Made by a program: the position numbers and the translations under genes. A DNA stretch of 64,000 nt from Myxococcota bacterium (GTDB lineage Bacteria > Myxococcota_A > UBA796): contig JAQXDW010000028.1 of the NCBI GenBank assembly GCA_029251165.1, positions 1 through 64,000 of the forward strand, given 5' to 3'. Shown here piece by piece: positions 61,552 through 64,000 of this stretch (within the stretch, counting starts at the first letter, position 1; each line of letters opens with the position of its first letter). The notes under the pieces are model-generated. The model worked only from the letters and a program-made list of their open reading frames with translations. It was not told where the DNA came from and made no database searches.

Positions 61552-63387
<1,836 letters not shown>

Positions 63388-63399
63388 CACACGAGAGGG

Positions 63400-63431
63400 G
63401 AAAAAAGAAGGCGAGCACCATGGTGCTCGCC
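63400..63431 (-). terminator. Intrinsic terminator for leftward transcription from the micro-ORF region
   Basis: A perfect 22-base palindrome (GGCGAGCACC...GGTGCTCGCC) at 63410-63431 is followed on the minus strand by TTCTTTTTT. This is a textbook Rho-independent terminator, and its T-run shows that it stops transcripts coming from the right, not mnmG transcripts. Confidence 0.85.
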
Positions 63432-63637
63432 TGGAGTGGCCGTGCGATGGAGCTGGGCTCTCAGCCGTTGCGAGAGGCGTCCAGGTCTCCAAGACTGCAA
63501 AGCCCGGGGTATGGTTACTGTCGAGAGTGCTTTGACCGACCCTTATTCCGTATAAACGGTAGTGGCCCACAGTGGTCATTTATGACGAGTAGTCACTTGA
63601 CGTGTGCGACCCTTGTTGGGGGGTCCGAGTCGGCGGT

Positions 63638-63682
63638 TTAAGACTCTGACAGGTGTCTCAATCGGGGTGGATCATCTTCCAT
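63638..63682 (-). CDS. Micro-ORF B, 14 codons, MEDDPPR...
   Basis: Reads MEDDPPRLRHLSES and then TAA. AAGGAGG lies ten bases before the ATG. The ATG is in the loop of a hairpin CTTCC-tgagat-GGAAG. The first six codons encode the same residues as micro-ORF A (MEDDPP) but with different third bases (GAT-GAT-CCA-CCC against GAC-GAC-CCG-CCG), which suggests that the peptide, not only the RNA, is kept. Too small for family assignment. Translation is unproven. Confidence 0.45.
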   Translation of the reverse strand: MEDDPPRLRHLSES

Positions 63683-63836
63683 CTCAGGAAGACCTCCTTG
63701 ACTGAAGTTAGAAGCTTTGGAAGCACTAAACGGTCATTTTAACATCTATCATCGATAGCGTCGGTTACCGTCGAGAGACTCTGCGCGCAGATGTTTCCAT
63801 TAACAAGGCAGTTGAGTATGTAAAGAACAGCGACGC

Positions 63837-63884
63837 TTAAAGTAGCTGTGTCCCTTCAAAATGCTTCGGCGGGTCGTCTTCCAT
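63837..63884 (-). CDS. Micro-ORF A, 15 codons, MEDDPPK...
   Basis: Reads MEDDPPKHFEGTQLL and then TAA. AAAAGGAGG lies seven bases before the ATG, the best SD spacing of any ORF in the region. The ATG is in the loop of CTTCC-aaat-GGAAG. It is the upstream copy of a tandem pair (micro-ORF B starts 202 bases further along the transcript). The peptide is acidic and not hydrophobic, unlike type I toxins. It could be a leader peptide, a secreted signal or a translated part of a regulatory RNA. Confidence 0.45.
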   Translation of the reverse strand: MEDDPPKHFEGTQLL

Positions 63885-64000
63885 TTGGAAGCCTCCTTTT
63901 GGCTGCATTGTCTACAATTGTTGTAGCACAACTGTTGATTTCAAAACCACTTTTTTTTGATTTTTTCGTCCCGCCTTTCAACATAGACGATAAGCCCACC

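Follow-up and report, generated by a model that had tools for sequence, protein, structure and literature searches.

The minus strand downstream of mnmG in this Myxococcota genome carries two tandem units, A and B, each made up of a strong SD, a start-codon hairpin, a micro-ORF beginning MEDDPP, and a 15-nt box, and an intrinsic terminator closes the pair. Our leading reading, held tentatively and at rather less than even confidence, is that the minus strand from ~63915 to 63404 gives rise to a stand-alone, lineage-specific small transcript with two translated micro-ORFs, in which unit B would couple translation to the opening of an RNA domain. Such a transcript would possibly be a dual-function small RNA. 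The window that we analyzed comprises bases 1 to 64000 of a 94.65-kb contig that belongs to a draft genome of 8.0 Mb (~91% complete, with 7.75% contamination).

Genomic setting

The gene mnmG (GIDA) ends at position 63387 and is convergent with the minus-strand micro-ORF unit. To the right of position 64,000 is a gene for a PLP-dependent enzyme of the PALP family, which starts at ~64006 and has a few bases in common with rsmG (GidB). The 600 bases that separate mnmG from the PALP gene have a G+C content of 42 to 56%, versus ~70% in the surroundings. In many relatives, including all three of the same-family genomes compared, rsmG directly follows mnmG, and the micro-ORF motif was absent from all of the relatives' stretches downstream of mnmG that were examined. 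Judged from these gene orders, the AT-rich region, which together with the PALP gene separates mnmG from rsmG, is specific to this genome.

The intervening PALP-family gene spans contig bases ~64006 to 65540 (L003:3007-4541). Similarly AT-rich stretches occur elsewhere, with about 10 others in the ~410 kb of this genome that was sampled. Examples with 44 to 47% G+C or less (genome, ~65%) are L104:1623-2251, L107:3405-4176, L116:3962-5361, L117:398-1568, and L122:2055-3144, and at least some of them carry ORFs of their own. A short tandem repeat around GTGCTCTCGACGACR (L117:247-321) adjoins one of these stretches. A replication origin near mnmG was also considered; DnaA boxes were sought by eye only, and none was convincing.

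Micro-ORFs and their initiation modules

An earlier sequence-only reading had described two minus-strand ORFs of 15 and 14 codons that share MEDDPP and follow strong SDs, and both points hold. Micro-ORF A (63884-63837) encodes MEDDPPKHFEGTQLL before its stop codon, and micro-ORF B (63682-63638) encodes MEDDPPRLRHLSES; the tails after the common MEDDPP are unrelated. The SD of A is AAAAGGAGG, 7 nt from the ATG, and that of B is CAAGGAGG, 10 nt from the ATG, with AAGGAGG in each. Initiation module A (63868-63899, minus strand) thus consists of AAAGGAGG, the hairpin CTTCC-AAAT-GGAAG, the ATG, and the MEDDPP codons, and module B (63666-63700, minus strand) of CAAGGAGG, the hairpin CTTCC-TGAGAT-GGAAG, the ATG, and the MEDDPP codons. 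The 5-bp CTTCC/GGAAG hairpin is present in both copies as described, and the placement of the ATG in its loop needs a small correction: most of the codon, but not all of it, lies in the loop, since its G begins the 3′ arm. In ~410 kb of this genome, 248 GGAGG-ATG starts were counted, and 7 have such a hairpin, 2 of them being copies A and B.

Taken alone, hairpin A has a predicted energy of −4.6 kcal/mol and hairpin B one of −5.4 kcal/mol, or −8.7 kcal/mol when extended. In the predicted folds, copy A has a weak start hairpin, with the SD partly to largely free, and in copy B the hairpin extends so that the SD is at least partly buried. The translational control proposed from the hairpin is only an inference, as burial of the SD is confined to copy B.

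Codons 1 to 6 differ between the copies at four positions, all of them silent third positions, in agreement with the peptide-level conservation that had been noticed. A simple count gives a P value of 0.002 to 0.006, a figure that overstates the case, since the silent changes were the reason for selecting the finding. Codon usage values of the ORFs (0.26 and 0.28 for A and B) are far from the 0.67 to 0.76 of the neighboring genes, and the ORFs are therefore unlike well-adapted coding genes. Such low values fit young or foreign sequence, or sequence that may not be selected for yield, and do not by themselves exclude translation.

Box, terminator, and promoter-like site

A repeated element after each ORF, also reported from the sequence, was recovered as a 15-nt box of the form CTCTCGAC[G/A]GTAACC, also written CTCTCGACRGTAACC, with one difference between the copies. 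Box A (CTCTCGACGGTAACC; 63777-63763, minus strand) lies 59 nt 3′ of its stop codon, and box B (CTCTCGACAGTAACC; 63527-63513, minus strand) lies 110 nt 3′ of its own. The exact box has only two sites in the 8.0-Mb genome, both at this locus, and a whole-genome search of its complement gave no further exact site. Each box contains a TAA that is in frame with the ATG of its unit, with internal stops between, a one-in-three coincidence.

The terminator that had been read as the end of the unit is well formed, with a 10-bp stem (63433-63410) followed by TCTTTTTT (63404-63433 overall, minus strand; −18.3 kcal/mol). It is found on the minus strand only, immediately ahead of the point where the convergent mnmG ends. 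This strand-specific terminator, with its T-run, is the strongest hint that the minus strand may be transcribed. Upstream of unit A, a promoter-like site (63917-63944, minus strand) reads TTGAAA-16-AACAAT, a weak consensus match at 9 of 12 positions. Inside this putative promoter is a small perfect dyad, GTTGT-GCT-ACAAC (63918-63936, minus strand), which is operator-like.

Relationship of the two units

Aligned locally, units A and B reach a best score of 21, beyond anything seen in 1,000 dinucleotide shuffles (mean, 10.4; maximum, 17). For the part after the ORF, which is essentially the box, the A/B score was reached in 8 of 1,000 shuffles; upstream of the SDs, the likeness is not significant (262 of 1,000 shuffles reach the score), and the middles of the units show no similarity in any frame pair. 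An SD combined with MEDDPP is found at two places within 0.2 kb at this locus and at a single place in the 378 other genomes of the phylum, where the match (genome G196) is antisense to a real gene. These comparisons uphold the local duplication that had been surmised and indicate that units A and B are diverged tandem copies. The exact matches between the units are only 8 to 9 nt long and a repeat search gives no direct repeat family at the locus, as might be expected if two unrelated stretches resembled each other by chance, but we regard such a coincidence as extremely unlikely given the shuffle test, the two collinear conserved elements in each unit, and the rarity of SD plus MEDDPP across 379 genomes. 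Origin of the units from a decayed longer gene was rejected on the same comparison of the middles.

The duplicated sequence could instead be a relic, that is, what is left of two copies of a small gene, acquired or de novo, that is no longer selected, within the AT-rich insertion that lies between mnmG and the PALP gene. The insertion is specific to this genome and AT-rich, the codons of the ORFs look foreign, no relatives were found, and the box TAA is in frame with each ATG behind internal stops. However, conservation of the start region and box beside an unalignable middle is unlike neutral decay, the two middles lack similarity in every frame pair, and the terminator is intact. We consider a relic unlikely, albeit a close rival of the stand-alone micro-ORF transcript.

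RNA folding of the units

Unit B is predicted, from its one sequence, to form a multi-helix RNA domain (63517-63653, minus strand) with a z score of −3.78, versus −1.31 on the plus strand, and its minimum-energy structure on the minus strand equals the centroid structure. In tiled windows, the z score peaks in unit B (−3.7); since the minima were −3.5 among 100 random windows and −3.3 among 24 AT-island windows, this fold is unusual rather than extreme. The helix predicted to close the domain forms between box B and the end of ORF B, which is also the best predicted duplex partner of box B within the transcript. Unit A (z score, 0.23) has no fold better than those of its shuffles, and pairing of the box with the ORF end is not its best option, which weakens the claim of one RNA mechanism for both units.

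The good fold of unit B on the minus strand, together with the poor codon usage and unrelated tails of the ORFs, would also suit a regulatory element that acts as RNA only. Its SD-like GGAGG, hairpin, and box would then be binding sites for a protein, the ribosome, or another RNA, and MEDDPP would be incidental. Against this stand the exclusively third-position divergence of the six shared codons, the failure of unit A to fold better than shuffles, and the lack of an Rfam match. This reading, too, competes closely with that of a stand-alone micro-ORF transcript, and we judge it to have a minority chance of being correct.

The plus strand might alternatively be the functional one, giving an RNA whose CCTCC (anti-SD) motifs beside hairpins would base-pair with SDs in target mRNAs, as the hairpin and CCTCCTT are found in the reverse complement of both copies. 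This is very improbable, because plus-strand folding does not exceed that of shuffles across the region and is only weak in unit B, and it is the minus strand that has the good terminator and shows the silent changes.

Search for relatives

For homology searches, we built a covariance model (R1) of the initiation module from both copies, with one T removed from copy B because MAFFT misplaced the short module; the altered sequence served as a search model only. R1 retrieves its two source copies (A at 46 bits and B at 42 bits) and no homologue over the order and phylum (379 genomes), where the best outside matches, at 24 to 26 bits, are at chance level; the further MEDDPP/hairpin copies that the sequence-only reading proposed to look for did not appear. 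No homologue was found by blastn in 57 relatives or by pattern scans of ~85,000 GTDB species and IMG/VR, blastn against phages and plasmids returned nothing, and a structure model of unit B had no match in 38 relatives. Rfam gave no match to the region and its surroundings at E values up to 5 and none above the gathering score, and at E values up to 10 there were three far subthreshold matches. In the genome set searched, this genome is the sole representative of its genus, some collections may omit near records, and metagenome contigs were outside the scope of these searches.

Translated matches in GTDB and IMG/VR were mostly inside long ORFs, fell in the wrong frame of ordinary genes, or were very short ORFs without further resemblance. 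One that we followed was internal to an 800-amino-acid ORF, apparently a phage RNA polymerase, and another lay within a recA-like phage gene but in a different frame. The examined matches outside this locus looked like chance. The "undescribed system" inferred earlier was not demonstrated, and a wider, conserved system found no support in any collection searched. With no relative found in any other genome searched, any function assigned to the locus is conjecture.

Comparison with known systems and proposed mechanism

SgrS/SgrT (PMC4021124) and VcdRP (PMC8672173) are dual-function bacterial small RNAs with one small ORF of 29 or more codons. The locus resembles them as a short, predicted stand-alone unit with SD-led small ORFs, an intrinsic terminator, and structured RNA; it differs in having two tandem ORFs of 14 to 15 codons and no relatives, and in being known from sequence alone.

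Attenuator leader peptides are encoded by a very short ORF whose translation selects between RNA pairings near the stop codon. The very short ORFs here could likewise decide pairings near the stop codon, but unlike attenuators they have no same-strand gene before the terminator and hence no cis target. Attenuation in cis is disfavored because only the terminator (63433-63404) and then the convergent mnmG follow. Ldr and Ibs/Sib are tandem type I toxin-antitoxin repeats with hydrophobic membrane peptides. They share with this locus the local duplication of small-ORF units, whereas MEDDPPKHFEGTQLL and MEDDPPRLRHLSES are shorter, acidic at the start, and not hydrophobic, and no antisense RNA gene was identified. 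CsrA/RsmA-binding RNAs carry GGA motifs within and next to a start-site hairpin, as do the modules described here. A CsrA-binding RNA (CsrA sponge) is nevertheless disfavored because no CsrA was found: PF02599 finds nothing in this ~91% complete genome, and the controls were positive.

Under the stand-alone micro-ORF reading, a small transcript would have grown by tandem duplication, and each unit would comprise a micro-ORF (MEDDPP plus an unrelated tail) translated from a strong SD and then a box. Ribosomes would load at both SDs. In unit B, the start hairpin would extend over the SD and the ORF end would pair with the box, so that translation up to the stop codon might unfold the RNA domain and release the box, acting as a switch. 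Since no gene precedes the terminator, any action would be in trans, with the locus serving as a dual-function small RNA. The sequence itself establishes the duplication, the SD/start/box anatomy, and the terminator; transcription, translation, the switch, and any target are inferences. We consider it improbable that the locus represents a novel class of tandem riboregulator whose paralogous micro-ORFs, with their start codons in hairpins, would sense translation and thereby open or close the RNA box downstream.

Without a homologue, the locus is one among many orphan small loci. Should the transcript prove real, this would be an orphan small-ORF/small-RNA locus from a lineage that has been little studied, with two copies that provide a natural internal comparison of what selection keeps, namely, the start, six codons, and the box.
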